Shown: piece by piece, positions 5,313-37,876 of the stretch
How positions within the stretch are numbered: the first letter of the stretch is position 1
How the letters are laid out: every line of letters starts with the position of its first letter
Assembly (NCBI GenBank): GCA_005223375.1
Contig: RXOD01003878.1
Coordinates: 1 to 40,859, forward strand
Length of the DNA: 40,859 bases
From: Amoebophrya sp. AT5.2
Taxonomy: Eukaryota > Sar > Dinophyceae > Syndiniales > Amoebophryaceae
Direction of reading: 5' to 3'
Notes under the pieces: model-generated
The model's input: the letters and a program-made list of their open reading frames with translations, nothing else
Databases searched by the model: none
What the model was told of the DNA's origin: nothing
Translations under genes and position numbers: made by a program

Positions 5313-5877
5313 CGTTGGCTACCCGAAAGAAGACACTGACACACGTTAAACACATGCTTGACGCAACTCTTTGCAGACCACGCGCTACACGCAGTTTTTT
5401 ATATTATTGGGCGACTGTCGTGTGCGTGTGGCGGCGGCGCGCGAAAGTCGCGTTGGTCCGTCTCTCGGTATGGCGTTTCTCCCGCGACAAAATAGTGTGA
5501 TGTTCCCTTCTGCATGCTGTCTGTCTGCAGCGCCGGCATTCCACTTCGACAAATTTGCAACCTCTGTTCGTGATCAGCGCAAACGTAGTCTTCCGTTGTA
5601 CAACAGGTCAGTTGTCCAGCCTGCATGCGGTGAGGAAGTTTTGGATCTGATTTGTGCGCATTGATCCTTCGTGAGGATGAAGCTAGAACAGCAACACGAA
5701 TTTTTTTTTGCAGCTGCAAAAGCCTTTTACCTCACGTACGATTACTGACAAGACGCCGAGCCAGCGTACACAGTTATTTGCAAACGACCGCGTAAGAAGT
5801 GTAAAATTCTTTCTAGAGTTCTTTCTCTGCTACTCATCCACGTGCCGTGGAGGTCCTCCAGTAGCCCATAGCCGATC
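5313..5877. other. Intergenic region / probable 5' UTR
   Basis: No supported coding frame is present. A pyrimidine tract followed by AG (ending at 5713) is a good splice acceptor. It could be a trans- or cis-splice site for the gene starting at 5878, but this is only a suggestion. Confidence 0.45.
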
Positions 5878-6866
5878 ATGTCAGCCTGCGTGCACTACTT
5901 CCAGTGTTTGCACGAGGACGGCCGCGAGCACTTGCTGGACCCGTTTGTGATCGAGCTCGAGTGCTACCACCGGATCTTCGCCACGGAAACGGATGCGTCT
6001 TCGCAGCCTCGGGACCAACCCATTTCCTCGTCGCAGGCGCAGCTTCGGGGGGAATTCGATCCGGACGCAGTTGGAGCACTGCAGGAGTTCTATCGTCACA
6101 AGGTATCTCTGCAGCCGAGCGCCTACCCGAGGGACAACGAGCGCCGCGAGCTGCCCTACGCGGAACGAGGTGTTGACAATGAGGCTGTGTTCGACCGCGC
6201 GGACCTGTACCGAAGATTTCTTCCGAGGGTTGTCGCGGGGGAGTTGTCGGGGAAGCAAGAGCCTGCGGCGTCCAGCTCGCAGGCACCGGAGGAGCTGAAA
6301 AATGTGCAGCGTAACCACGGCGGAAGCAGCGGTGAAAGCGGCACTGGTGTTCATGCCAATGCGTATGCGACGCGGCGGCGCGAGGCCCTGCTGCTTGACG
6401 TTATTCGGACCGAATTGGCAGCCGCGGTTTCGGACTTGTGTTGGACTTGTGTTGGACCCCTCTACGACGCCGGCGTGCTGCCCAGTGTGTGCCGGAGCAT
6501 CCCGCACTTCTTTTCCCGCAAGTGGTACGTGTGGCAGCGGAGCCGGAGCGCCGCTTCGCCTGCATCGGAGGTGGAGGTTTCGACGCTGATCGCGCGGGTG
6601 TCGAACCTGCTGACGAACATCACCAAGCCGCACCTGTCAATCGTGCTCGACCTGGCGTTGTTCTCGGTCTTGCACGTGCTCTTCGAGAGCGCCTGCGAGC
6701 GAATAGTGGGGGCCATGCCACCGCAGGCGAGAAGAAGCGCAAACGGCTGCGGGGGGAAAAGCAGTTCTCCTGGCCGCGCGGCTCCTTCTGATAAAAGCTG
6801 GGGAAGCCTGCGGCAAGATATTAGCGACTCTGCTGGTGGGGGGTATAAAGTTCTACAAAAGCTGTT
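5878..6866 (+). CDS. Unknown host protein, 5' part, split by the 11.9-kb insertion
   Basis: The ATG at 5878 opens a frame of 329 codons plus two bases that reaches the insertion point, ending K-V-L-Q-K-L. Without excision it continues only into the element and stops at TGA 6868-6870. Joined to 18738-19473 it gives 574 aa with no stop or shift at the seam. The reconstructed reading across the junction is KVLQKLLKKDRNFK. I do not recognise the family. It starts with a Cys/His-containing stretch (SACVHYFQCLHEDG). It has a hydrophobic helical region near 240-280 (NLLTNITKPHLSIVLDLALF) and low-complexity Ser/Gly segments. The frame is intact on both sides, so either the insertion is recent or the element is removed from the transcript. 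Confidence 0.75.
6857..6866. repeat. Target-site duplication, left copy
   Basis: AAAAGCTGTT directly precedes the left inverted terminus. It is identical to 18728-18737 at the right end of the element. Ten bases is within the range made by Mutator-like and some other RNase H-fold transposases. Confidence 0.93.
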
Positions 6867-7035
6867 ATGAACGCACTATTTCCAAAAGTGGACAAGAATA
6901 GCTGCACGAGATTCGGGGCACACGACCGAATGGATCCAGCACCCTTCCCGAATGGATCCGAGGAGCACACCGATTTGCACCACACGAACTGCGGGCAGGA
7001 ACTCGAAAACTTTGGGTTTAAAGTAGAACCCCAAG
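6867..7035 (+). repeat. Left terminal inverted repeat
   Basis: The first ~108 bases match the reverse complement of the right terminus with two substitutions. A diverged block of about 16 bases follows, then ~45 further bases with one mismatch, ending CCCCAAG. Similarity fades further inward. The outermost bases are ATGAACGCACTATTTCC. Two copies of CCGAATGGATCC lie inside, at 6926-6937 and 6948-6959, spaced 22 bp. They are candidate transposase-binding repeats. Confidence 0.95.
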
Positions 7036-7221
7036 TATTCACAAACCACATAATCGCCCTCAGATTGCGACCGATCTGCGCACCACGACGCGCGCGCAAC
7101 ACACGTTTGTCCGATCGCGACTGAGTCCTCGCGGGCGCGCGCTGCCCCTCGTTCTATTCTCTTTGGTCAGTGGGAGCACCTGTCTGAACTTGGTTCTCGG
7201 AAAGTTCCGCACGTCTCTCCA

Positions 7222-7273
7222 TTTGCGGCTGAACGTGCAGCCTGCACGCTGCACGTGCACGTTCAGCCGCAAA
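7222..7273. repeat. Perfect 18-bp inverted repeat with 16-nt spacer
   Basis: TTTGCGGCTGAACGTGCA at 7222-7239 is the exact reverse complement of 7256-7273. The spacer itself contains further TGCACG/CGTGCA units, so alternative hairpins are possible. The site lies ~190 bp inside the left terminus. It could be a recombinase or ParB-like protein binding site, or a transcript hairpin; nothing decides between these. Confidence 0.85.
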
Positions 7274-7403
7274 CATCTCTCCGCGTTCGATCCTTTGGTA
7301 ATTGAAAATATTCGATCGATCGACAAGTTCCACAGGAAGATTCAGGGAGGGCCTTCAACTTCCAATCCGGTAGAGATGTATGATGATGATCGCCTTTGAT
7401 TAT

Positions 7404-7933
7404 ATAAAATTTCTATAAAATTAAGAACAAGTATTTTCGTGTGCAGCTTATCTGTGAAGGCCAAAAAGCTTGAACGTCGTAAAGGCTTGCGCCCCTTTGC
7501 GTAGGATTTGCCGACTTCGGGTGGCTTTGCGTAACGAGAGAAAAAGGATCATAGAGTAGTGCAAGAACTAGGCGATCATCTTTGATAAAATTAAAGAGCC
7601 TAATGATAAAATTCAAGAACAAGAAGCGCCATTTGATAGTATGTAGAAGAACCTATCGCATATAAAAAAAGAGCCGATCTCTTCAGATTGGAGTATCATT
7701 AAGCCGAGGTATGTTGATAAAATTTGTTCAACGTCATACCATTAACATAATCATTATCGAATCATAAAATTTTCCTGATGATGATGATCGAAGTAAAAAT
7801 TATCTAGAAGTAGCCGGCCCCAATTCATACGCTCCGGCAGAGTAGAAGGCGCAGCGGTGAGTCTTCATTTTCTAAAGTAGAACAAAAAGCACAAGAGATA
7901 GAAGTCGCCTGGCTTGGCTGTAAACATAAAATT
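7404..7933. repeat. Seven dispersed ATAAAATT motifs
   Basis: Copies begin at 7404, 7415, 7585, 7606, 7717, 7764 and 7926, all in the same orientation. Three are preceded by G, two by C and two by T. The sequence is AT-rich, so some copies are expected by chance, but the uniform orientation is notable. Confidence 0.45.
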
Positions 7934-8130
7934 GAAAAGCCGCATCTTCTGATCTCTCGCTCGATCTACGACTACTTCTAGCCCGACAGGTAGGCCGTCG
8001 TGAAAAAAAAGAAGGTCTCACACCGCCTCTCGCGATCACGACTACGCAGCAGTACCAATTCCAGAACAGCCTACTTACACCACCCCAGCCGCATCCTGGA
8101 ACGGCAGCTGCGGGCGCGCGCGCACTCGAT

Positions 8131-11068
8131 CTACTCGTTGGCGGAGTTGGAGGAAGTTCCGAGGAGGATCTGTGCCAGCTCGCGGTCCTCGCTCCCGGCC
8201 ACGCTGTTGCTGCGGCTGCGCTTCGCGGGCGGCGACCCGTTGCAGCTGGTGATGTCCAGGTCCTCGCCCCAGCCCGCCAGATCGATCTTACCGATCGCGC
8301 GGCCGCGCTTGGCGTACTCCTTCTGCATGACCTTCAGCTGCTTGCCCTTGCTGCCCTCGATGGAAAAGAGGGAGCTCGGCCCGAAGCTGCCCTTGTTGTT
8401 CGTGGTGAAGTCCTGCAACGTCAGCGCGGCGGCGGCCGAGGAGCTCGAGCTGGACGAGGAGCTGGTGCCGGACGAGGAGGACGCGCCGCCCGTGCTGGTG
8501 GACTTTTTCCCCGCCTCGTTGGAGCTGGCGCTGTCGGTGACCGCGCCGACACTCGCCTTCACGCCGATCGGCTTCATGAGCTTCTCCGCGTCCGCCTTCA
8601 CCTTCTCCGCCACCTTGGCCAGCTCCTTCTGCGCCTTGGCCCTCTCGGTCTTGGTCAGCTTCTTCTCCTCTGCCAGCTTCTCCATCTTGAGCTCGGCGCC
8701 GTAGGACTTCAAGTCCTTGTGCGCCAGGAAGGCGTGGCAAGCTGCCAGCAGCTGCGCCTGCTTGTTGGCCTTCGGGTTGTTCTTCGCGGCAGCACTCTCC
8801 GGCTTCTTCTTGGCCTTCGCGATCAAGTCGGCGCGGCGCTTCTTCCGGGTCTCGGGCAGGTGGTACGCGGCGCACGGCATCTTGTACTTGATGACGCAGC
8901 CATCCGGCATGGTGACGGATTCCGGGCAGAAGCTGATCACCTTCTCCCGCAGCCCCTGCATCGGCTTCCACAGCATCTCCACGCTCGAGTACAGGTCGTG
9001 GCCCGGATGGTCCGAGGGCGTGGCGACCTCCAGCGGCAGGCGAATCGGCAGCGTTTTCATCTTCGTCACGTCCTCCTCGCAGTACGACGCGCGGGTCGTC
9101 ACGGGGTTCTTGTCCGTGAGCTTGTAGTACGACTGCGCGACCACCAGCTGCGCGGACTCGAACTGGAAAGCAGTATCGGAAGATCAAATGAGTCATTGAT
9201 TCATTTTCATTTCTGCATAGGTACGCAATTTATGTTGGGGCACAATCGGAGGGCACAGTCGGAGGGCACCATCGGACGTTGCCATCGGGTGGTGCCATCG
9301 GATGGCGCCATCGGATGGTGCCATCGGATGGTTGTGCCATCGGATGGCACAACTCCACGTAGAATCGGAGGGCACAGTCGGAGGCGGAGGCGGAGGGGAA
9401 AAGAAAATGTGTTTATGTACGTACCTATGCAGAAATGAAAATGAGTATGACAAGTGCCGCGGGGTCCTGCTTTCCAGCCACGCCATCCAGCGCATCGACG
9501 GAGACCTTGTAGCAGTCCAGGGTGCGGGCGGCGGCCTCCTCCTCCTTGAGCTCCTTCACGGCCTTGGAATGGCGCTCGTCAGCCGACTTGCAGGACGCCT
9601 CGTACTCCTTCTCCAGCACGGCGAGGTCCTTCACGTGCTGCCCCTGCAGCTCCACGGCCTGGCCGACCTTCTTTGCCGCCTTCAGCGCAGTCGCCCCTGC
9701 GGCGATGGACGCGATGCGCTCCTTGTCGCACGTCTTCCTCATGTGGCGCTTCTCGTTGTTGTACCGGGTCGTTTCCAGGTTCTGCTTGATCTTCACCTCC
9801 TTGACCTCGTCGGAGTCCACCTGCGAGATGATGGTGGCAATCTCGCCCTTCAGCTCCGACCACAAGTTGCCTTCCCCGCATTCGATAACGACCTTGGTGC
9901 CCTTCTGCAGCCCGATGTTGGTCGCTGAAGTCAAGGCCAAGGTGATAAACAAAGATGGCGAGGCCGAGGCCGACGGTGGGGCCGTGAACGCTTACGCTAC
10001 GGACCGGGGGACGAGGACGTGGACAAAAATAAAGTTTGTTGCGGATAGCGATAGGGCTAGAAAAATAAAATCTCAAAGACTGGCACAGACGGGCGCGCCC
10101 TTCGTGATCGTCGTGAAGGACCCGGGGCAGCCGGTGTTCGCGAGCGTGTTCGTGGCCAAGGCGCAGACGCCCGCGATCTTCGACAGCTTCAGCACGCGCG
10201 CCTTCCGCTCCTTCGCCTGGACGTCGCTGTACAACCAATCTTTGTTGTACTCCAACCCCGCGTCGACCGGGTTGCAGGCGGTCACGAGGTCGTCCGGGCT
10301 GGTGATGTTGCTCAAGTCCACGCCGACCGCTTCCCCGAGCTTCTTCGTGGACATGCAGTTCATGACGACGGACGAGATCAGGCGGACCAGGTTCTTGCGG
10401 AACTGCGTGTGCGAGCCCTCGGCTTTCTTGTAGTTCAGCTTCACCAACTCGCGGATGGCCTCGCACAGCGTGAAGTCGTCGGTGAGCTTCAGCCCGATCT
10501 CGCCGAAGATGCGGAAGATGCAGCAGAGCACGACGTCGCGACAGGTGTCGCTGAGCTGCTCGATGCGGAGCTTGCGCAGGGTGTTCCTGGCGTAGGTGAA
10601 GGTAAGAGTAAGTGTAAATACAAGCAAGTGCAGCGAGGCTGTGGCCGAGGTAGAGCCTCCTGTCGTGAAGTGTTCGCTACTGCTAAAGCGGACAGCTACC
10701 CTACGCTGAGGCGAGGACCGCGCGATGAAAGTGATAAGAAAAAATTTACGACGCAAAGAGTACTTGAACATGTTCGCGTACTGGCGCTCGTCCGTCGCCT
10801 TGCCATAGGCGCGGACGTACTCGACCCACTCCTTGCTTCTCTCGCCCCACGCCGTCCGCGCGTGCAGGAACTCGGTGATTTCGTAGTCCGTCTGGATGGA
10901 CTCGCACCGGGTTTTGAAGTACTCCAGCCGGCTGACCTTCTCGTGGCCCGGGGTGGCGCAGTGGTCGTCGTATTCCTGCTGCAGCTGTAGAGTTGGTAGA
11001 AAGTGATTAGTCAATACAGATAGCAGGCGCAGTCGCTCTAGCTCTTGCAAAATTTCCTCGAACATCAT
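8131..11068 (-). CDS. Element-encoded 761-aa protein of unknown function, four exons
   Basis: Minus-strand exons are 11068-10764, 10586-10081, 9924-9482 and 9162-8131, totalling 2286 nt. Introns one and two are GT-AG. The third can be read as GT-AG (9481 to 9163) or with GC or GA donors a few bases further on, because repeats blur the boundary. The N-terminal half is helical and contains a Cys-containing stretch (SDTCRDVVLCCIF). The middle (residues ~280-420) is Lys/Glu-rich and probably coiled coil. It is followed by FCPESVTMPDGCVIKYKMPC, a KK/KR-rich segment, a serine run and a nuclear-signal-like PPAKRSRSNS. No catalytic motif was recognised. The start ATG at 11068 lies 16 nt from the divergent recombinase start; a second ATG is at 11065. 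Confidence 0.72.
9163..9481 (-). repeat. Intron with nested inverted repeats and a minisatellite core (introner-like)
   Basis: The outer pair is CTGGAAAGCAG at 9163-9173 and CTGCTTTCCAG at 9467-9477. An inner perfect 24-bp pair lies at 9201-9224 and 9421-9444 (CATTTCTGCATAGGTAC near its inner end). Between them, at about 9238-9395, are roughly 13-bp degenerate units of the type GGTGCCATCGGAT, flanked on both sides by ATCGGAGGGCACAGTCGGAG. The structure coincides with the last intron of the 761-aa gene. Confidence 0.8.
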
Positions 11069-11084
11069 AGGCAATAGCGACAAA
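11069..11084. promoter_or_regulatory. 16-bp divergent intergenic gap between two element genes
   Basis: The start codons of the 761-aa gene (minus) and the tyrosine recombinase gene (plus) are only 16 bp apart. Any promoter must overlap coding sequence, or the true transcript starts lie inside the opposite gene. Sequence alone does not show which. Confidence 0.4.
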
Positions 11085-11837
11085 ATGGCAAAGCCTAAGG
11101 CTTCTACTAAGCCTAAGGGTAGCAAGGTAGTGGCGAAGAAAGCCGCAAAGCCAAAAAAGCAGAATGCCCCCAAATCTAAATCCCCGGAGCATGAGCCACT
11201 AGCCTGCACCCCCGACGAGCCTGAGCTCGACGGCGAAGAAAGATCCGGCAGCCTCACCATCGAAGACTGCCGCCGATTCGCAGACCACCTCCAGGCCAGC
11301 TGCGGGAGAAAACAAAAAGCCGGAAGATATTACAAACTATGCTGGACCCTCCAGTGCCTGACCGGAAGAAGGGGGATGGACGTCCGCAAGCTAGAAGTGC
11401 GCGACGTCTTCACCGATCGCATACGGATCGGGAACAGCAAATTAGCGAAAAACAAGGGTGGACGGGGAACACTAAAAGTTGTCCCGATTGACCCAACGCC
11501 GGCGACGCTCAAGTTCTTAAAGGAGATGATAGCAGAGATGCAGGCCGATGGAAAATGCGGCACCGACAACGTCTTCGATTTCAGCTACGAGGCGGAGGGC
11601 GCTAAGATCAGAGCAGCGAGGAAGACTTTTCGCCCGAAAGACAAGACGAGCTGTCCGGCGGACTTGATTACGTCGCACACGCCGCGCCGGAGCCTGGCCT
11701 CCCACCTCTGGCGCCAAGGAACCAGCCTAACAACTATCGCGAACATCACGGGCCACTGCTCGACCGAAACGCTGCAAAGATACATCAATGGTGATTTTAG
11801 TTTTCAACGACAAGCGGCGAAGAGTGTAGGGCTTTGA
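11085..11837 (+). CDS. Tyrosine recombinase (phage-integrase fold), element-encoded
   Basis: A single exon encodes 250 aa. A Lys/Pro-rich tail (residues 1-40) precedes a short helical part, then the catalytic domain. The first arginine is R96 in CLTGRRGMDVRKLEV. A likely active-site lysine is K119 or K122 in SKLAKNKGG. The H-x-x-R pair is H198 and R201 in SHTPRRSLASH. The second histidine is H224 in ITGHCSTETL and the nucleophile is Y233 in LQRYI. The set R-K-HxxR-H-Y is therefore complete. The protein is shorter than XerC/D (about 300 aa) because the N-terminal core-binding domain is reduced. The family cuts and rejoins DNA through a 3'-phosphotyrosine link. Its 3' end overlaps the ParB-like gene tail to tail by 41 bp. 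Confidence 0.92.
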   Translation: MAKPKASTKPKGSKVVAKKAAKPKKQNAPKSKSPEHEPLACTPDEPELDGEERSGSLTIEDCRRFADHLQASCGRKQKAGRYYKLCWTLQCLTGRRGMDVRKLEVRDVFTDRIRIGNSKLAKNKGGRGTLKVVPIDPTPATLKFLKEMIAEMQADGKCGTDNVFDFSYEAEGAKIRAARKTFRPKDKTSCPADLITSHTPRRSLASHLWRQGTSLTTIANITGHCSTETLQRYINGDFSFQRQAAKSVGL

Positions 11838-12611
11838 AAAGAAAACTAAGTACGCGGGGCATAACATCGAACATCTTCTCGGGCATTGTGGTTCGCAAAC
11901 CAGTCTGGCCTTCGTTCTTGACGCGGATATACAACCGCACCAACTGCGGGCATTCCAACACCTCCGGCTCGAGCACGATGTACCTGAGTGCGGAGACGGA
12001 AATGAGGGGAAGAAGGTGCTTTTTTTTGCATCGTCTTCTATTGAATAGCAGAATAAGTACTTCATCGGAATCTGCTTGCACGCCCCTTCTCCCATCTCGC
12101 GCAGCGCCTGGACCCGGTGGCTTCCACTCAGCACGAGCAGTTTTCCGCCCTTGCGCACCGTGACGATCGCTGAAAATTTTCAAGGTATGAAGGCTTAGTC
12201 TGGTCACCGTTTCCTATCCTTTCAGGCACTGAGAAACAACAATCTAACAGGATAAGTACCGTGCGGATTCACGAAACGCCCCGCCTTCATCACGTCCACG
12301 ATCTTCCACTTGTTCGCATGCAGCCGCAGTTTGTTGTCCTCGTGCTCGTCCATTTGCTTGAGGACCTCGTCGGTGACGTCCATCTCCATCACGGAACGGC
12401 CACGGCAGCGGATCTCCATCATGTCCACGATGTCCTTGAACTTCGCGATCTTCCCGCGCGCGCACTTCTTGACGAACTCATCGAGTTCGTCCACCGTGGG
12501 CATCCCATAATCCTTGGGATCGACGACCGACGACATGGTGCCGGTGGTGTTGGTGGTGGCACAAGCGAGGAGGAGCTGTAGCCACCAGGCGAGAAAAAGC
12601 AAGCACTTCAT
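11797..12611 (-). CDS. ParB/sulfiredoxin-fold-like protein, element-encoded, three exons
   Basis: Exons are 12611 (or 12536)-12260, 12169-12061 and 11983-11797. Both introns are GT-AG with GTAC donors. From the ATG at 12611 the protein is 215 aa and begins with a hydrophobic leader-like stretch (KCLLFLAWWLQLLLACA). From the ATG at 12536 (MSSVVDP) it is 190 aa. VDVMKAGRFVNPHAIVTV precedes KLLVLSGSHRVQALREMGEG. This resembles the ParB core, in which a strand is followed by G-x-[HR]-R-x-x-A. ParB-family proteins bind DNA and in some cases hydrolyse CTP or act as nucleases. The best match is around the GSHR motif only, so the fold call is moderate. The third exon (YIVLEPEVLECPQL onward) is not recognised. 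Confidence 0.62.
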
Positions 12612-13299
12612 CAACGTTGAACTAGCCTAAGATGTATCGCAACACCAGTGTTGCGACCAGCCAAAAGCCGAAGACTTCTCTGTGATGTGGATGAAAAATT
12701 CGGGAATAATTGAGGCTCTGTGAGAGCCTGTCGCCGAAGGCTTCGCGGCCACGCCTCCGTTTCGTGCCAGATCTCCTGACTTTTCACGCGAATCCGGCCG
12801 AAAGCCGTGAAAATATGGTGGTTGCTGCTCGTTTCTAGCTCCGCTGGGCGAAGCCTTCGCGAGCCACTCCTTTCCGAGACTGCTTTGAGGCGTGAAATAT
12901 TCGGAGATCGAACGGAGAGAGTCGCTCGCAGAGGGATCGATACGCACTGTCTCAGAGCCGCAAGAGGGACACAACCGAGCTTCAAAACACATCATCACAT
13001 CATCACTCCAGGCGCGCAATCACGTCACAATCACGCCAAAAACACAAAGGTACTACAAGCTTTTACAACCACTTACAAGCAAAACTACATCATTTTCTCA
13101 TTGTCAATCACTACCAAAATGATGCAAAAATCTATTTATCACAGCTTTTCAGAAAGTTAAAATATTGCGGCATGATGTGGTTGCAGTGCTTATCTTGAAG
13201 CCATTTTATGGCACATGGTAGTGATTCAGTTCTAGCGAAAGCATTACGCTTTGCTTTAAATTTACAAGCAAAATCATAATCACGCTATTTCATCAAAAC
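12612..13299. other. Noncoding spacer inside the element
   Basis: It lies upstream of the ParB-like gene and downstream of the 1458-aa gene. A small hairpin is present near 12780-12815 (TTTTCACG ... CGTGAAAA). CGAAGGCTTCG (12733-12743) and CGAAGCCTTCG (about 12851-12861) are near-palindromes. No gene was recognised. Confidence 0.5.
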
Positions 13300-16200
13300 C
13301 TATCGGAGCAGTGGAGCAGCTTCAGCCTGCTCTTCATCATCACTAAATACCTGATTTCCATTCAATTCCATCAGCGCCCTTGTTGCATCAATATACTTCG
13401 CCACAGCCTTCCACGCCTTCTCTTCATCCGCCGCCGACACCTTCGGCACCGGTAGGCCGATATCCAGCGCGACCTTCTCGAGAACGTCGCACCGCCCCTG
13501 AGCCACCGACTCCCTATCCAGCGACCGGTTGTTGGTGGTGGCTCCCCATCGCTTGGGCTCGTCGCCCGCGACCCACTGCCCATTCACCTTCTTCCGCCGC
13601 GCGGCTGTCGAGACCTTTACGAACCACGTGGACTGCTCCGGCCGGAAAATCGCATACAACGACTTCTTGTTGAAGTGCGCGCGCCACGCCTGCGTTTTCG
13701 CGAACTCCGGCACCGCTGCAGCCTGCGATACGTTCTTCCACTCGAAGTCGCGCAGGGTCCGCCCCTTCGCGGTCCCATCCCGCGCCACGATCTCGTCGCA
13801 GAACTGCTTGCGGCGCGACGGAAGAATGATGTCCTTCCGCGGGCACGAGCGGTCCTCCCAGCAGCCAGGCCGCACCATCACCACGAGAGAGCCCCTCTTC
13901 TTCGACCACACGAACTTCGTCGTGGAGTTGATCTGCCAGCAGAACGGTCCACGCACCGTTTCAGCAACCGCGCCTGCCCACGAAGAAAGAGTTTTCGGAA
14001 ACGCCAGGGGAATGCGGTAGCAGTCGTGCCCCGCCGGCACCGGCCTTCCGATGCTTTCCGCCGAGGGGATGATCTCCTTGCACTCCAACAGCATGCCCTT
14101 CTGCTTGGACTTGTAGTAGCACAAGTAGACGGGCTGCTTGCCCCCGTTGGCCGCTAAGACCTCATGCCGCAGACCGCCAGGCTTTGGAGAGTCGGAAACC
14201 ACTTTCCGACACAGCCACATCAGGTCGACCATACCGGGGGCCGCAAGTCTACAGCGCTTCCCGGAGAACCGTTGCGCGATGATCGGGGTGCGGGCCTGGT
14301 TGAAGACCGGATAACAGATCTCCAGCGAGCCGTCCTTCCCGAGCGGTCCGCCGATGACGGGCGCGGGTTGCGTGAGCAAGGGGTCCTTCTCGTGCTTCAT
14401 CTCTATTGCGCGCGCACGCCGCAGCACCCGGTGGGTCGGACGAGCCTTTGACTTTTTTTTGGCAGCTGCCGCCTCGAGGGCCTCCTCTTCCGCAAAGACG
14501 AGCAGCCGGCGCAGTTCTTCACCCTCCAGATCAACCGGCTCCACTTCCGGTTCCGCAGCAGCATTTTCATCAGCATCAACTTCCATCGGCACAACCCCCT
14601 GCTCCTGCTGCTGCGCCGCCCTGTTCTCCACCGCCAGCTGCAGCGCCGCATGCTTGGGCAGCTTCTCCTCGTCTTCCAGCATGCCGAAAGCGCGGTCGAC
14701 TTTATCCTTGATCATCAGACGCTGCGCCTTGTGCTCCTTCGCGGTTTTCCGGCGGCAGTCGTAAAGTGCCTTCCACTCCCGCTCCAGGTGGTCCCACTCC
14801 TCCCACGGAAGAGGCCTCTCTCCATAAATCACTTGGAGGATTCCGGCCTTCTCCGACCGCATGTTCGGCGCGTTCACCTGGCCGTGTCGCGTCTGGCTGT
14901 GCCGCCCCTCCGTCCAAAGTGCTGTGGGGCTGCTCGCGATGTAAATGGGGGCGAGGATGAGGAAAAGCCGCAGTGGGATCGTCGAGTTGTTGACCCCGTT
15001 TGCTATCTTCTCGAAGTCCATGTAGTAGTACCTGAGGAGCCAAGCGAGAAACGGATCGCGGCCATCTGCATCCGTCATGATCAGCAAGCTTGCGGCGTTC
15101 TGGCGCTCCAGGGGGCACGAGGAAAAGAAGCGGTTGAAGAGTAGGGGCCAGGTGTGAAACTGCTTCTGCCGCTCTGGCATGCGCATCGCGAGGGTGATCA
15201 CGAGCGACAGGGCGAGTTGGTTTTCGTCGCCCATCACCTCCAGGAAGTCAGACGCCATTTTGTCCACGTCCGCAATGAAGAGCGGGCCAGCCCGCTTCAT
15301 CTCGCCCAGACTCGTGTCCGACCACACTTCCGCCATATCCTTCTTCACAGCATCGGCGGCTTCGCTGGTGATGGACAACACGCGGTGCAGCGCATGTACC
15401 ATTTCGAAGAAGCCAGGTTCTTTCAGCGCCTTTTGCGCTCCCCGCAAAGTGGCCTGCAGCTCTTTTTTCCGGCTGCTTGCGGCGATCTCGTTCAAGTCTT
15501 TCTCGATCTGCATGCGGTGCTGCATGATGTCTGCCAAGGTTAGGAGGAGAGTTTGCCAGCGGTGGTCCGCGAAGGTCCGGACGCGCACGGAGCCCCAGAA
15601 CGCCATCGCGCGGTAAATCTTCCGCAGCATGTCCAGAAACCCCGGAAAGTCATCTTCCAACCCATCCAGTATCTCACCGTCGAGGAGGTGGTACTGGTGG
15701 TTCATACACACGACCTGCATCGCGAAGCACTCGAGCGGAAGCCGCTCTCGCGGTGCGTCCGCTCTCCGGCCTGCGGCAAGTATTGCTTCTACGGGTACGG
15801 AAGGGACGACCGCATTGGCTGACGAAGATGCGCCGCCGTTCTCGATCTGATGCTGCGCGCGAAGCTGCTGCTCAGCGATTTTCTTGGCGTCGTCGTACTG
15901 CTGCTGAGTCTGGGCCTTCCGTTCGATCCGGGCAGCCGCGCAAAGTCTTCTGAACTCCCGCACAAACGCGAGAACGTCGCTGCCGCAATCGCTGGCGCAC
16001 AAGAAGAAAGTGATGGGGTCCGTCATCCACTCGGCAGCGACAGATCCGGGCATTGGAACTACATCTGCAATCATGGAGTATATGTCCTGGAGGAGCGACT
16101 GCGCGCCGCCCTCGTGATCGAGTGATTTGGGATGCACGTGGACGACGGAGAGCGTCTCGTCGTGGTTTGCTCGCACCAACACTACCTCCAGGGCGAGCTG

Positions 16201-17833
16201 CTTTCCCCGTCGGTAGTCGGTCGCATCCGGTCCCAGCCGCACGACGACGAACGGCCGCTGCCTCGGATCGAGAGCGTTCGCAAGCGACTGATCCGTGTTT
16301 ACCACCTTGGGGCTCTCCCCGCCGAACCGCCGCTGCCCGTCTTGGCCGAGGAAGCTTTTTCCGATCGCGCAGATGTCTATGTCCAGGAGCGACTCCACGT
16401 CGAGCATGCTCCGCATCGTGTAGTACCGCACCGCCTTTTTCTGGGCCCGCTCGGATGCCATCCGGAACGCGTTCTGCCGACGCGCGGCGAGCTCCTGCTC
16501 CGATTCCTTGGCTTCTTTCACTTCCGCGCGCGACTTGTTGTTTCCGAGGGTGATAAGTTTGCGACGCTTCACGGCTTCTCCGTCCACGAGCTGCCCGCTG
16601 TAGAGGTTGCCGGACCAGAGTCGGTCGCCCTCCTTGCAGGCTCTCTCCTTCTCGTCCAAACCCCGGCACCGCGTCTTGTGGGTAACAGAATCCTCGACGC
16701 CCAGCAGCTTTTGAAAGAGCGCGATTTTCTGCGTTGCTGTTGCCGACGATGTTCCGCAGAGCCACTCCAAGTATCTCCAGCGGTCGGACCTGGTGGGGAG
16801 CGCGATCATCTTGTTCCAGTCCTGGATGAGAAACTCCTCTTTCACGTCAACGACCTTAACCCAGGCCTTGTCCTGTGCGAGTGGGTGGGATGCGGAGCGT
16901 TGATTCACGACCGATAGCAGAAGCATTGATTCATTTTTTTTTTTTGATTCAAGCATTAGCATAAGCATTAGCATAGGCCTACTGCTAGAAGACCAAGACG
17001 AAGACGCCACTCATCCTTATTGTTGGTACCTCGTCAGCTTTGCGCTTTTTCCCACCTCCCAGAACGATGGCGTCGTCGGTTGCAGCTGGCGGCAGGAAAT
17101 CCATGACCATGAGGCTGTACCGCTTCGCAAGCGTCTTCGCAGCGAATTCACGCAGCTCCCGCGCGGAGATTGTTTTGCAAGTAGTAGTACACCCAGCCGG
17201 CCGCGTCCGCTTCCATTCTTTCTGCAGCGCTCCCTTCGACGGGTTCTCGCTTCGCCGGTGGACACCTTTGCCACCACCTTTGCGAGGGGCCGCTTGCACT
17301 TGCGTCTCCTGGTCCCCGTCCTCCTGCGGATACGGACCACACCAAACCTCCGTACAAAAATCTGCAAGCTGCGTCGACGCCACGGAAACGACCTCCTCGA
17401 GTTCCTGCCACGTCGTTATTTCCCCAACCGACTCACGTACGACGTCGATACGGAAGTCATCGAGCGGCTGTTTTCGCTCGATGTAAAACGGCGCCATGTA
17501 TCCGACGTCCGGGCCCACCTGGCCCACCAAGAGTTCACCGATCTCCTCCATCGCGTCCTCCAACACCTGCTGCTCAGCTCGAGTCGCCGCCTGCTCCTGC
17601 GCCGCGATCTCCGCCTCATGGACGGGAAGGCCGGTGACGGGATCGAGGATCTCCTCTTCATCAGCATTGAAGTTCTCGGCGAAGTTCATCAGCTCCTCGC
17701 GCCCCTGCTCCTCCACCTCGTTCTGGACGTTCTGGCTGTTGTGGCCGACGCTCTCGTCGGCGAGAAGATCATCTTCTTCATCAAGCTCCAGCCGGAGCTT
17801 GGCATTTTTGTTGCCGCCCTTTTTCGACGGCAT
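13300..17833 (-). CDS. 1458-aa element-encoded protein, putative RNase H-fold transposase, two exons
   Basis: Exons are 17833-17030 and 16872-13300 (minus), joined by a phase-0 GT-AG intron. The N-terminal 268 residues are acidic (LELDEEDDLLADE) and then basic. In exon 2 an acidic site sits in a predicted strand (FVVVRLGPDATDYRRGK, D484). A strand pair follows (QLALEVVLVRA, LSVVHVHPK), then FFLCASDCGSDVL (D563). VVCMNHQYHLL supplies C657-x-x-H660. This D...D...CxxH order resembles hAT, Mutator-like and KDZ transposases, but I cannot place it in one family. The C-terminal third has KKKSKARPTHRVLRRARA and Cys/Trp-rich stretches that could bind DNA. Size, position in the element and the 10-bp duplication support a transposase role. 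It could instead be another element protein. Confidence 0.6.
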
Positions 17834-17873
17834 TGCGACGTAGGGACGGCCACAGCGGCCGCAAGCCAAAGAG

Positions 17874-18080
17874 ATGGAGGAACGAGCTGCGGGTGCGAGT
17901 GCCGCGAAACGTGCACGAAATGAATCGGAAGACTTCTCTGCTGCTTCTACGTCTACTTCTGCTACTTCTTACACTAATTCTGCCGCTGCGGCTGCATGTG
18001 CTCGTGCTGACGACAATAGTATAATAATAGGTGTACGTGTAGCAGTTGCAGTGCCAGTAGCTCTCGCCCTAGCTGGCTAA
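17874..18080 (+). CDS. Small low-complexity frame divergent from the 1458-aa gene (doubtful)
   Basis: An ATG 41 bp from the start of the minus-strand gene opens 68 codons rich in Ala, Ser and Thr. The peptide starts MEERAAGASAAKRARNESED and ends with a hydrophobic segment (GVRVAVAVPVALALAG). No family is recognised and composition may explain the open frame. It is listed because it lies inside the element in a divergent position. Confidence 0.2.
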   Translation: MEERAAGASAAKRARNESEDFSAASTSTSATSYTNSAAAAACARADDNSIIIGVRVAVAVPVALALAG

Positions 18081-18557
18081 ACGAATGCGATCTGATAGCC
18101 CACGCCCTCGCTCCCGATCTCGATCAAACTTCTTCAAGCCCGAGCCCTCCCGAAATCGATCTCACGACGACGACCCACAAGAACTTCGAAATCGAAAACC
18201 GATCCAAATCAAAATCTAAATCGATCCGGCGACGATAGCGGCCGACTCCAGCACGATCTTTTTCTTCGCGACGAATCCAAGTCGCGCGGCAGGCCCTGGT
18301 CCACGCGAAAGCTGTTGTAGTCATGGGGTTGGGAATCGTCTCGTGCTAGCGTTGGACTTGGACAACTACAGCAGCTACAATATCATAATCAAGTTTTTTT
18401 TTTTCTAAAAGTGTATCAGCTGCAGAGGATAAGTATGGACGTAGGTCAAGCCAAATGTCATAACCTCGTCCCCCTCAGCTGCTGGTCGCAGTCCGTCGCG
18501 GTTCGCAGATCGCTCGTCAACGCTTTTGTAGCGGGCGCGAATGCCAAAAGTTGAATC
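18081..18557. other. Noncoding right arm of the element
   Basis: No supported gene was seen. Short repeated words of the AATCGAT/CGATC type occur at 18115-18235. The sequence leads into the right terminus. Confidence 0.5.
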
Positions 18558-18727
18558 CTTGGGGTCCTACTTTAAACCCAAAGTTTTCGAGTTCCTGCCC
18601 GCGCAATCTTGTTGAACAGATCGGTGTGCTCCTCGGATCCATTCGGGAAGGGTGCTGGATCCATTCGGTCGCGTGCCCCGAATCTCGTGCAGCTATTATT
18701 GTCCACTTTTGGAAATAGTGCGTTCAT
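18558..18727 (-). repeat. Right terminal inverted repeat
   Basis: This 170-bp block is the reverse complement of 6867-7035, apart from three scattered substitutions and one short diverged block near 18600-18620. It ends in GTGCGTTCAT and abuts the right target-site duplication. The two GGATCCATTCGG units are preserved. Confidence 0.95.
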
Positions 18728-18737
18728 AAAAGCTGTT
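18728..18737. repeat. Target-site duplication, right copy
   Basis: AAAAGCTGTT follows the right terminus and is identical to 6857-6866. The host frame resumes directly after it. Confidence 0.93.
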
Positions 18738-19473
18738 GAAGAAGGACAGGAATTTCAAGCTCCTGTACGACAAAGTGCTGGAGCCCTGGAGTGCGTTTTA
18801 CGAGTCGTTGTGCGGGTCGCTGCAGCTCGACAAACTCGAGTTCTCGCAGCTGCTTCCGAGTCAGAAAATCGTGCTGCAGTGGCGGGGGACCGGGGGAAGT
18901 TCTTCGGCTTCTTCGTCTTCTCGCGCCAGTGGTGCGCAAGGCGCGTCGCTGCCCGTTTCCGCGGACGGTGAGCCGCTGCTGCTTCCCTGCGGCCAGGAGG
19001 GTGAGGATCGAGGAGTTAGCAAAAAAGGGAAAATGGGTGGCGTAGGAAGCTGGACAGCTGCCAAAGCCGCATTCAGCAAAGAAGCCATGGCCGAGTGGGT
19101 CGAGTGGTGGTTTAGCCTGCCCCCTCGGACCAGTGCGCAACGGGAAAACGACGCAGCGTCGTCGGACGAGGAGGACGAGGAAAAAACGCAGGACGCGGAC
19201 AAACGAGAATTCAAGGCGGGTTTAGTCAGTCCAACAATTGTTCCGAAGACGTGGGCGCCTGGTAACGAGTGGCTGATAGCCCTTTTCGCGCGAGCGAAGG
19301 CCAACGCATTGTCGCTTGACTTTTGGTCACAACTCGGGGAGTCCCTGTGCAAGTCGCGGGGCTTCTGGGCAGTTTTCATCGGCGGGGTGAGCCTGCGGAT
19401 GATATCAACCGGCGCAAGCCCGCTGCCCGTGGACCAGTTCTTCTCGATCGAAGAACCCGATGAAGACGAGTGA
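18738..19473 (+). CDS. Unknown host protein, 3' part, split by the insertion
   Basis: This is the continuation of the gene that starts at 5878. It supplies residues ~330-574 and ends at TGA 19471-19473. It begins LKKDRNFKLLYDKVLEPWSAFYESL and continues through low-complexity Ser/Gly and acidic (SSDEEDEEKTQDADKRE) segments. WLIALFARAKANALSLDFW and a C-terminal FFSIEEPDEDE follow. The two parts sum to 1725 nt, exactly 575 codons, when one duplication copy is kept. No ATG stands at its start, so by itself it is a 3' fragment. Family not recognised. Confidence 0.75.
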
Positions 19474-35179: not shown

Positions 35180-37876
35180 ATGTGGGTTCGCGTGTGCAGC
35201 GCGGCGCTTCTCCTGGCCGTCTGTTTCGGCGCGCCCGGCCCGCGGCGGAAGCGGCAGCTGCAACAGGTCCTTGACGCCATCGCAGACATGATTGCGGAGT
35301 CGGAAAAAGCGACGAAGGAGCAGGAGACGGCGTACTGCAGGGCCGAGGACGCGCTCAACGACGAAAAGGCTGCGCAGACCGCGCTGCTGCAGACGAAACA
35401 GCGGGAAGCCGAGGAAGCGTTCGAGGAGCAGAAGCTCTGCGCTTCGAAAATCGCCGAGCTGAACGTCCAAGCGCAGCAGGCCGCCGATTCGTTCGCAAAG
35501 CAGGAGGAAGCGCTGCAGAGGTTGGATGCCGACCGCGAGGAGGAGAAACGGGCGTTCGACCAGTCCTCCGGGGAGCTGGGCGTGAGCCTAGAGTCGCTGT
35601 CGCACGCGCTGCTTTCCCTGGAGAAAAAGGAGAAAACGGACGTGGCGACGCTCCTGAGCGTGCAGGGCTCGTCGGTGCTGGAGAAGCGACTGCGCGAGCA
35701 GGAACCGGAACTGGTTGCGAGTCTGCTGTCCGTCGGCGGCGGAATGGGGGGTGAGACAGACGCGCGAAACGCGGACATGATCCTCGGGATTCTGAAGACG
35801 CTCCAGGAGACGCTGGCGCGCGACAAAGCGGACGGGGAGGAACAGGAAAAAGAAGACGCGGCGAAGTACGCGAAACAAGTAGACGCAGGCAGAAAAATGC
35901 TGAAACGGTAGCAGGCAGTAGAGATTTTTGGAGACTGGATCTGGCTGTCATGCTTTCGACGGATAAGACGATCATCTGTGGTCGTGTTTCAAAGGAAGTT
36001 CCAAAATGCAGATCGATTCTTTTTCCGCCACGATTTCCTCAGGCTCGACGGCGTGTCGAAGAAGCTTGCGCAGGAGCTCGCGGATTTTCAGCAGCGTCTC
36101 ACGACAGCGACAGCGCAAAAGGAGAACGCGCGTGCGACTATCGCGGAGGTATCGCAGAAAGACTACGATGCGCAGCTGCGGGAGGTGAGGTCCCGGAAAA
36201 AAGAGTTTCGCGAAGATTCCGCGAGAACCCACGACGCAATGCACCAGGCCATGGATGTGACGGAGGGATTTATGCGCGGCGATGCGGAGGTGATCGCCGA
36301 TACGGGTGGAAAAAAGAAAGCCGAGGACGAGGGTCGAAAGAAAATAACGTACGGTGACAGCCTCAAGAAGAAAAGAGCGGCAAGTGGTGCGCGGAAGAAG
36401 CAGATGGATGATAAGGGCGCGACGAGGCGGAAAAGCGAGCACGCAATGTCGAAAAGCGCGGGCGACAAAGCTGCGAGCCAGCGCGAGAAGAAACGTGCTG
36501 ACAGGCCGCGAAAGAGCAGCTTGGACAAGAAGAGAGATGCGAGCCGACGGGACAAGCAGACGAATGATAAGGGCACGCCGAAGCGGAAAAGCGAGCGCGC
36601 AATGTCGAAAAGCGCGGGCGACAAAGCTGCGAGCCAGCGCGAGAAGAAACGTGCTGACAGGCCGCGAAAGAGCAGCTTGGACAAGAAGAGAGATGCGAGC
36701 CGACGGGACAAGGAGACGAATGATAAGGGCACGCCGAAGCGGAAAAGCGAGCGCGCAATGGCGAAAAGCGCGGGCGACAAAGCTGCGAGCCAGCGCGAGA
36801 AGAAACGCGCTGGCAGGCTGCGGAAGAAAAACTCTGACAGGAAGAGAGACGCAAGCCGACGGAAGAAGCAGATGTCTGATAAGGGCGCCAAGGCGAACAG
36901 TGCGGCTGGACGGAAGAAGGGTGCGGCGGACCGAAGGAAACGGAAGTTGTGGAAATCGAAGCAAACCGAAAGTGTGCGGGAGAAGAGGCGACGGAGAAAG
37001 CGGTCCTTCCTGCGAAGAATGCCTTCGGCGGGCCCTCTCAACTTTCTTCAAACGCGCGGCAAGGGGGAGTCAGTCGCAGACATTCTGAAGGTGATCGAGG
37101 CGCGCAGGAAATCTGTCCAGGAAGAGAACCGCGAGGCGGCTGAGCGTCAAAAGACGTGCGAAAACGACCTGGGCAGCGCTGCGAGACAGTCTGCTGCCGC
37201 GACCGCCCTGGCGCAGGACGCCGCATCGGCCTTCGAGCGCGCCAGTTTGGACTTGGAGGCGTTAGGCGCTCGTGTTGCTGATGCGCGTGCCGCATGGGAC
37301 ACTGTCACTGCAAACACTGCCAAAACGCAAGAGACGCTTGTAGGTACCGAGAGGGCGTACAAAACCGCCAGTGCCGAGCGGGCGGACGCACGCGCGGTCT
37401 TCCGGGACGCGAAAGAGCTGTTGCGGGAAGCCTTAGGCGGCGCAACGTCTTCCACTGGGGGCGCTTCGTCGAAAAATACTGGGGGAGGTGCTGTCGTCAT
37501 GGCGCTCATCGACACCATTCTCGCAGACCTGAAAACGGAGACGGCCGATGCGGATGCGGCCTTCACGAAACAAAAGCGAGAGTTGGAAACGGACAAGGAA
37601 GAGTTGGAGAAAGAGGCGGAGGAGCTGTACGAGCAGTTTGCGGGGGAAAAGTCGCTGCTAGCGACGAATCAAGTGAAGCTGGATTCGCTCGAAGCGGATA
37701 AAACTGCGGCAGACAAGGAGGCGGACGAAAGTAAGAACGAGCAGGAGCAGGTGAAGGGTGTGTGCGAAGAGTTTCTGCAGAAATATCGGGATGAGGAGGC
37801 GGATCGACAGAATGAGGTGGACTCCCTTACACGAATGACACAAATTTTACGCGGGGCGGAGCTGGATGCGGGCTGA
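35180..37876 (+). CDS. Secreted or lumenal coiled-coil protein with basic 52-residue repeats, two exons
   Basis: Joining 35180-35907 and 36043-37876 gives 853 aa with a GT-AG intron in phase 2. The N-terminus MWVRVCSAALLLAVCFGAPG is a good signal peptide. Two acidic, Ala/Glu-rich coiled-coil regions follow (about 35-285 and 590-850). They flank a very basic block (about 335-560) that contains three tandem repeats of 52 aa. Each repeat runs from KSAGDKAASQREKKRA to DKGTPKRKSERAM or a variant. GGA-type low-complexity stretches also occur. No enzyme motif is visible. Similar Lys/Arg-repeat coiled-coil proteins with signal peptides are common unknowns in dinoflagellates. The start is the ATG that opens the signal peptide; the frame is open further upstream without an ATG. 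Confidence 0.7.
36456..36890. repeat. Three tandem 156-bp coding repeats
   Basis: GCGCGGGCGACAAAGCTGCG recurs at 36456, 36612 and 36768, exactly 156 bp apart. The first two units are nearly identical and the third has diverged at its 3' end. The period is 52 codons, so the frame is kept. Confidence 0.92.

Follow-up and report, generated by a model that had tools for sequence, protein, structure and literature searches.

The stretch analyzed here (contig RXOD01003878.1 of assembly GCA_005223375.1, deposited as Amoebophrya sp. AT5.2; 40,859 nucleotides, referred to as the window) contains a composite DNA transposon of ~11.9 kb at positions 6866-18728, the borders being set by comparison with other copies. 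Between long terminal inverted repeats (TIRs), the element carries a large gene for a putative hAT-like DDE transposase, a gene for a 915-residue protein, and a gene for a tyrosine recombinase (YR). A first-pass annotation, made from the letters of the window, had claimed four intact genes, but we find three, as its 'ParB-like' gene and its gene for a 761-residue protein join into one gene of seven exons. The large gene (13300-17833, minus strand) encodes 1458 residues in two exons (17833-17030 and 16872-13300) joined by a GT-AG intron of 157 nt, which confirms the 1458-residue protein of that annotation. The 915-residue protein is encoded at 8131-12536 on the minus strand (exons 12536-12260, 12169-12061, 11983-11854, 10984-10764, 10586-10081, 9924-9452, and 9162-8131), with all six introns of the GT-AG type, and is 36.6% identical over 891 residues to gene model P0008. 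Gene models P0007 and P0008 fuse the large gene and the 915-residue gene into one; the two are kept apart here, and a shared transcript may exist. The YR gene (11085-11837, plus strand, 250 residues) is nested antisense in the third intron of the 915-residue gene (11853-10985, 869 nt). Close to its two ends, the intron at 9163-9451 (minus strand) carries the ~25-bp inverted repeat TCATTTTCATTTCTGCATAGGTACG; in this it resembles the introner elements of Amoebophrya, where introns with inverted repeats have been described (PMC7789003).

The YR gene is intact, as had been proposed, and its product matches Pfam Phage_integrase with an E-value of 6.8e-11. Residues R96, K119, H198, R201, H224, and Y233, which we take to have catalytic roles, are invariant in 24 aligned YR sequences, comprising 19 of 20 places in the genome and five database proteins (a stop-bearing fragment on contig C279 was omitted; at least P0003, P0004, and P0006 duplicate other rows). 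The matched stretches are free of stop codons at 19 of 20 places for the YR and 38 of 40 for the large protein. Pairs of YRs are 56-76% identical (21 pairs, in 18 of which dS is saturated beyond computing) and pairs of large proteins 39-65%; in all 15 pairs of large proteins dN is lower than dS. Together with the intact frames, these values show selection in the past, which need not act at present. A distant clade of recombinases (L047, L048, L049, L050, and L051) is 34-40% identical to the YR in the window and has an extra loop inserted after the K residue; element ends were not found at these loci.

The direct repeats and near-identical inverted termini described in the first-pass annotation are present at the borders of the element. 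The 10-mer AAAAGCTGTT occurs at 6857 and 18728, adjoining the inverted termini (a third copy, at 1111, is unrelated to the element), and the two TIRs, counted from the element end up to and including the putative crossover core described below, are identical at 152 of 163 positions. The left TIR (6866-7040, plus strand) begins with TATGAACGCAC and has a dyad site at its inner end, while the right TIR (18553-18728, minus strand) has the same start read inward. A search of the 50.7-Mb assembly with the TIR gave two matches, both within the window element. The repeats had been read as a target site duplication of 10 bp. However, the copies have TATGAA, or that sequence with one base changed, at their outer termini: seven, the window element included, have TATGAACG, C299 has TATGAATG, the two ends of an element split over two contigs have TATGAAGG and TATCAAGG, and C158 has TATGAGCG. 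Because the copies begin in this way, base 6866 is part of the TIR, which leaves the 8-mer AAAGCTGT (6858-6865 and 18729-18736, plus strand) as the duplication; the two extra matching bases around it are, judged from the other copies, a chance match. The duplication measures 8 bp in all seven copies examined, six on single contigs and one split, with a perfect repeat in six and 7 of 8 positions in the other. Besides the window, the duplications are GATCGGCT in C874, GGTCCGCT in C1444, TAGTTAGC in C310, GCATTCAT in C299, AAAATGAA versus AAAATGAG in C2027 (the imperfect pair), and AGCGCAGC on both C2124 (left end) and C1421 (right end), which read as halves of one element.

The flanking 8-mers bear on whether the YR could itself have inserted the element, as in Cryptons, with the repeats serving as recombination cores. 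A YR is present, and the TATGAA found here is comparable to the TATGG termini common to most CryptonS elements (PMC3212892), but this reading is very improbable. In Cryptons the YR is the sole integrase, there are no TIRs, and the direct repeats are of 4-6 bp, whereas the element here has long TIRs, keeps a DDE-like gene, has variable 8-bp duplications, and carries its YR-type core ~150-260 bp inside its ends. Crypton insertion was rejected because the flanking 8-mers all differ in the seven copies.

The element belongs to a family in its genome. Relatives of the large protein are found on at least 20 contigs (the window and 19 others) and relatives of the YR on at least 20, with both on 15 of the 25 contigs in the union of the two lists; on every one of these 15 the two genes lie on opposite strands. 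Queries from the YR, the large gene, the ParB-like pieces, and three '761-aa' pieces matched in one and the same order in the five closest relatives, C874, C1444, C2125, C2027, and C2292. Self-comparison of nine tiled contigs revealed long TIRs at both ends in five (C874, C1444, C2027, C310, and C299). No TIR pair was seen in C1721, C2038, C2124, or C1649 when tiled, in C1931 or C2038 by a self-comparison with parts of both unread, or in the partly unread C1089. Both C2125 and C2292 start exactly at the outer base of a TIR and end inside the other TIR, which fits the collapse of identical TIRs during assembly. These abrupt starts, and the shortness of contigs in general, are what could suggest an assembly artefact or a chance joining of unrelated genes. 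We give this explanation practically no weight: the gene pair is repeated on 15 contigs, duplications are found in seven copies, host frames are restored in two, and the independence of the copies rules an artefact out. Other copies thus share the gene set and the type of ends and have duplications of their own. This is the check that the first-pass annotation had itself set, and it supports the proposal made there of a composite DNA transposon outside the named superfamilies. Comparison of these sequences confirms the element as a genuine member of a family, and the case for a new transposon lineage is well supported.

Database searches with the large protein and the YR, two of which scored the best-sharing 7,996 and 7,992 candidates, retrieved nine proteins; P0002 and P0006 come from short metagenome contigs and the other seven from EukProt. 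By eye, P0001, P0003, P0004, and P0006-P0009 match copies in this genome, with P0001 corresponding to C2125, P0007 to C2292, P0008 to C1444, and P0009 to C2027. Four EukProt proteins align over their N-terminal parts with exon 1 of the large gene, with E-values of 2e-7 to 2e-9. Since these EukProt proteins are gene predictions that, by eye, stem from copies in this genome, their support for the exon plan is that of further copies and not of other species.

Removal of the element and one duplication from the window restores an open frame of 576 residues (left part 5872-6867, right part 18737-19473, plus strand, with the flanks joined and one duplication kept); Pfam matched neither piece. The relative on C874 splits a mitochondrial carrier gene in frame, with Pfam E-values of 2e-18 for the left part (L060:4435-4875) and 1.7e-30 for the right (L061:179-787). 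No frame of at least 100 residues crosses the insertion site in C1444, C2027, or C310, and frames across the site of the split element reach only 62-86 residues. A long frame crossing the site in C299 is no evidence, with two left codons only and unread bases counted. A search of the genome with the right host flank of the window alone returned only itself, and no empty allele was found.

The 8-bp duplications are best explained by a DDE-type protein. In the large protein, residues D216, D295, C389xxH392, R438W439, and E655 (exon 2 numbering) occur in the order D, D, CxxH, RW, E that is found in hAT transposases, and are invariant in 11 of 11 aligned rows. In hAT transposases an arginine precedes the conserved tryptophan. 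The CxxH motif and the tryptophan, both located between the aspartates and the last glutamate, are shared with Hermes and Kat1 (PMC4763223), as is the 8-bp duplication. AlphaFold models of the large exon and of its core reached a pLDDT of 40 and 45, respectively. The best structural neighbor of this low-confidence model was the hAT transposase Hermes, with a middling Z-score, and no transposase beside Hermes stood out; Foldseek returned no E-value under 0.08. These models weakly support an RNase H fold. Pfam gave no hAT-type match for five sequences scanned singly, a kind of scan that can miss remote members. Pfam, NCBIfam, and PHROGs gave only weak unrelated matches for the large protein and P0007-P0009, and PDB profile searches with the large protein found no relative. 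Compared with known hAT elements, the one described here differs in lacking a sequence-profile match, in the 1458-residue length of its protein, in its two further genes, and in its TATGAA termini. From the motif order, the duplication length, and the structural comparison, we regard the large protein as a putative hAT-like DDE transposase.

Other transposon superfamilies agree with the element in part. Its duplication length and long TIRs fit Mutator-like elements (MULE), whose duplications are of 8-11 bp, but Pfam scans of the element proteins found neither a MULE nor a Mariner domain, nor PF18758, the model for Kyakuja-Dileera-Zisupton (KDZ) transposases, which likewise had no match in the whole genome or in control genomes. 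The element shares 8-bp duplications with Zisupton and one Dileera family (PMC12730594), and it shares with KDZ elements a very large transposase, which can exceed 1300 residues there, and extra genes, found in giant KDZ elements (PMC12477816). Kyakuja elements have a 7-bp duplication and no TIRs, and the term tyrosine recombinase does not occur in the same KDZ text (PMC12730594).

A viral origin could also account for a recombinase between inverted repeats. The YR matches phage integrase family PHROG 1 (E-value 1.3e-16), and papers on protist Polinton-like viruses contain the words tyrosine recombinase and terminal inverted repeats, so that the element might be a decayed virus, Polinton-like or other, that kept both. 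We find this highly unlikely. Pfam and PHROGs gave no capsid, packaging, or polymerase match for the scanned proteins, including none to the protein-primed PolB, capsid, and packaging ATPase of Polintons, with the fold of the 915-residue protein unassigned; no relative was confirmed in two scans of viral contigs, nor any relative of the YR among 50,697 phage records; and the element encodes, beside its YR, a protein resembling a transposase and a third one of unassigned function. With PHROGs, viral contigs, and phage records all failing to support it, a virus was rejected as the likely reading.

Each TIR of the window element has at its inner edge a dyad of 36 bp, with inverted arms of 14 bp around a core of 8 bp. 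The left site (7005-7040, plus strand) has arms at 7005-7018 and 7027-7040, symmetric at 12 of 14 positions, and the core TAAAGTAG at 7019-7026. The right site (18553-18588, minus strand), in inverted orientation, has arms symmetric at 10 of 14 positions and the same core at 18574-18567. In the aligned TIRs of eight elements the outer terminus is common to all, and the inner edge reads GAATCCTTGTTGTT-TAAAGCAG-AACCACAAGTATTC or a variant of it. At least 10 of the 14 arm positions are paired in 16 of 16 examined sites, compared with 0.2% of 96,366 background positions. The core is identical at both ends in six of six elements, and also on the two contigs of the split one; the near-identity of the TIRs accounts for this in part. 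It differs between some elements (TAAAGCAG, TAAAGTAG, TATACCAG, ACTACCAG, TAGAGCGG, TAAAGCGG, and CAGTGCGG). The TIRs of C874 and of C2027 are identical at 217 of 217 positions to the end of the core; the arm that follows is no longer identical (12/14 and 11/14, respectively). In the 100 bases past the site, ungapped comparison of the two ends gives 18-41 matches in six elements; the window element has 22. The sites of YRs typically consist of inverted repeats of 11-13 bp and a spacer of 6-8 bp (PMC3212892). The size of the dyad, its asymmetric 8-bp core, the agreement of cores within an element, and the stop of identity at or near the core are as a crossover site predicts, and by size and layout we regard the dyad as a putative crossover site of the YR.

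A scan of the genome allowing up to three mismatches to the dyad consensus gave 10 matches, with none for a reversed control; at this threshold more diverged sites are missed, the window's own among them. Nine of the 10 lie on contigs that also carry genes of the element; the remaining one is on C158, behind the TATGAGCG end. This further end with its dyad site (L090, 8206-8439), on a contig for which the protein searches listed no element gene, is a remnant or a diverged copy.

Several observations limit this argument. The 16 sites are not independent, the left and right ones being near-copies and the near-consensus ones inheriting their symmetry; the diverged sites carry most weight as evidence, namely those of C82 (12/14), C2038 (13/14), C310 (11/14), and C299, the last symmetric at only 10 of 14 positions with 14 mismatches to the consensus. 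TIR identity continues past the site in C310, an exception among the elements, and spans the whole inner arm in C299. Other dyads of similar strength occur within elements, and the argument for this site therefore rests on its recurrence at one place, its core, and its position at the border of identity.

A conserved palindrome close to the ends of an element could instead be a binding site for the transposase or the 915-residue protein, operator or parS-like, with the YR acting elsewhere or being a passenger. The hAT-type transposase Kat1 requires subterminal repeats (PMC4763223), and the 915-residue protein contains the ParB-like motif LSG[SN]HRxQAL, found in four of four aligned rows. However, the ParB-like identity given in the first-pass annotation comes down to this one motif: the segment has no Pfam or PDB profile match, and a search of the genome with ParB_N produced a single sub-threshold match, on C289 (17.3 bits). 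The size of the dyad, its fixed asymmetric core, the element-specific cores, and the stop of identity are also what would be expected of a crossover site, and we judge a mere binding site unlikely.

Taken together, we consider it probable that the element is a DNA transposon with two recombination systems, a transposase and a YR that acts on inverted sites in the TIRs. The hAT-like transposase would cut at the TIR ends and insert the element, the YR would act on both dyad sites, and the 915-residue protein would be an accessory DNA-binding or maintenance factor. Because the two candidate sites are in inverted orientation, inversion of the interior would be the simplest product. The YR could flip the interior (~11.5 kb) while the element replicates or exists as a circle, and so raise copy number, as FLP does on the yeast 2-micron circle; if the site is indeed that of the YR, such inversion or amplification comes close to an even chance. 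The YR could also resolve dimers or other transposition intermediates, a role that, on the same premise, is conceivable but somewhat doubtful. Set against the proposal of two recombination systems is the view that the YR serves to resolve transposition intermediates and that its inverted sites are doubled only through lying in the TIRs. Such a role was proposed for Tec1 and Tec2 (PMC3212892) and is known for the Tn3-family TnpI elements Tn4430 and Tn5401 (PMC7157771). The presence of two inverted sites per element, with inversion as their simplest outcome, speaks against it. Moreover, transposition of the hAT type proceeds by cut-and-paste, with no need to resolve cointegrates, and we view the resolvase explanation as rather unlikely. 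In its fullest form, the proposal would make the element an integrating plasmid-like transposon, with hAT-like spread, FLP-like flipping of the interior for amplification, and maintenance by the 915-residue protein, representing a new dinoflagellate superfamily. This extension is speculative and its chances are limited; if true, an amplification module of the 2-micron type would have been fused to a DDE transposon.

Known systems share parts of this plan. Tec elements have long TIRs, a Mariner-type transposase, a TA duplication, and developmental elimination. Tec1 and Tec2 of the ciliate Euplotes crassus combine a DDE transposase and a tyrosine recombinase in one alveolate transposon (PMC3212892), like the element described here, for which DDE is inferred from motifs; it departs from Tec in its hAT-like transposase, in the 8-bp length of its duplication, and in the putative crossover site within each TIR. 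A fusion of DDE and YR with TIRs is likewise found in MarCry-1_FO, in which a Mariner is joined to a Crypton, but with a TA duplication and TIRs of 16 bp. The first-pass statement that no known element combines all of the features was therefore too strong, as Tec1/Tec2 and MarCry-1_FO pair DDE with YR (PMC3212892). Tn4430 and Tn5401 also have a transposase and a YR resolvase, but are bacterial and have one internal resolution site. Their duplication is of 5 bp and their TIRs are short. In the yeast 2-micron circle, two inverted crossover sites lie inside inverted repeats. The circle shares a YR with the element described here, and its fork-turning, replication-coupled recombination amplifies it (PMC10586699), but it is an episome without a transposase and is partitioned by Rep1/Rep2. 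The 2-micron-like layout in the present element, with an intact YR and two inverted candidate sites, was found by sequence alone. Among the literature matches listed, no title or opening of an abstract named an element of this composition, with most subscription journals and Repbase reports outside the scope. The pairing of DDE and YR is itself already known from Tec and MarCry; as far as can be told, what is new is that a hAT-like transposase is the partner of the YR, that the genes are nested, and that a crossover-like site lies at the inner edge of each TIR.

The host genome is, by its sequence, of dinoflagellate type: a 21-mer that we take to be the dinoflagellate spliced leader has 33 matches in it, 18 of them perfect, with none for a reversed control. 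Elsewhere in the window, three tandem copies at 36392-36886, spaced by 156 bp and matching the first at 95% and 85%, sit in a stretch of strong A and G skew.

To our knowledge, YRs found beside DDE transposases in eukaryotic transposons such as Tec have no assigned DNA substrate. A concrete candidate site of 36 bp, present at the inner edge of every readable TIR, makes the question of the YR substrate testable with one enzyme and one DNA. The family also adds a large multi-gene lineage that would probably escape a search with a library of known transposase domains, such as the one used for Amoebophrya (PMC7789003). If the host is Amoebophrya-like, the family would provide autonomous elements that are still intact, in a lineage with many transposon-like introns.

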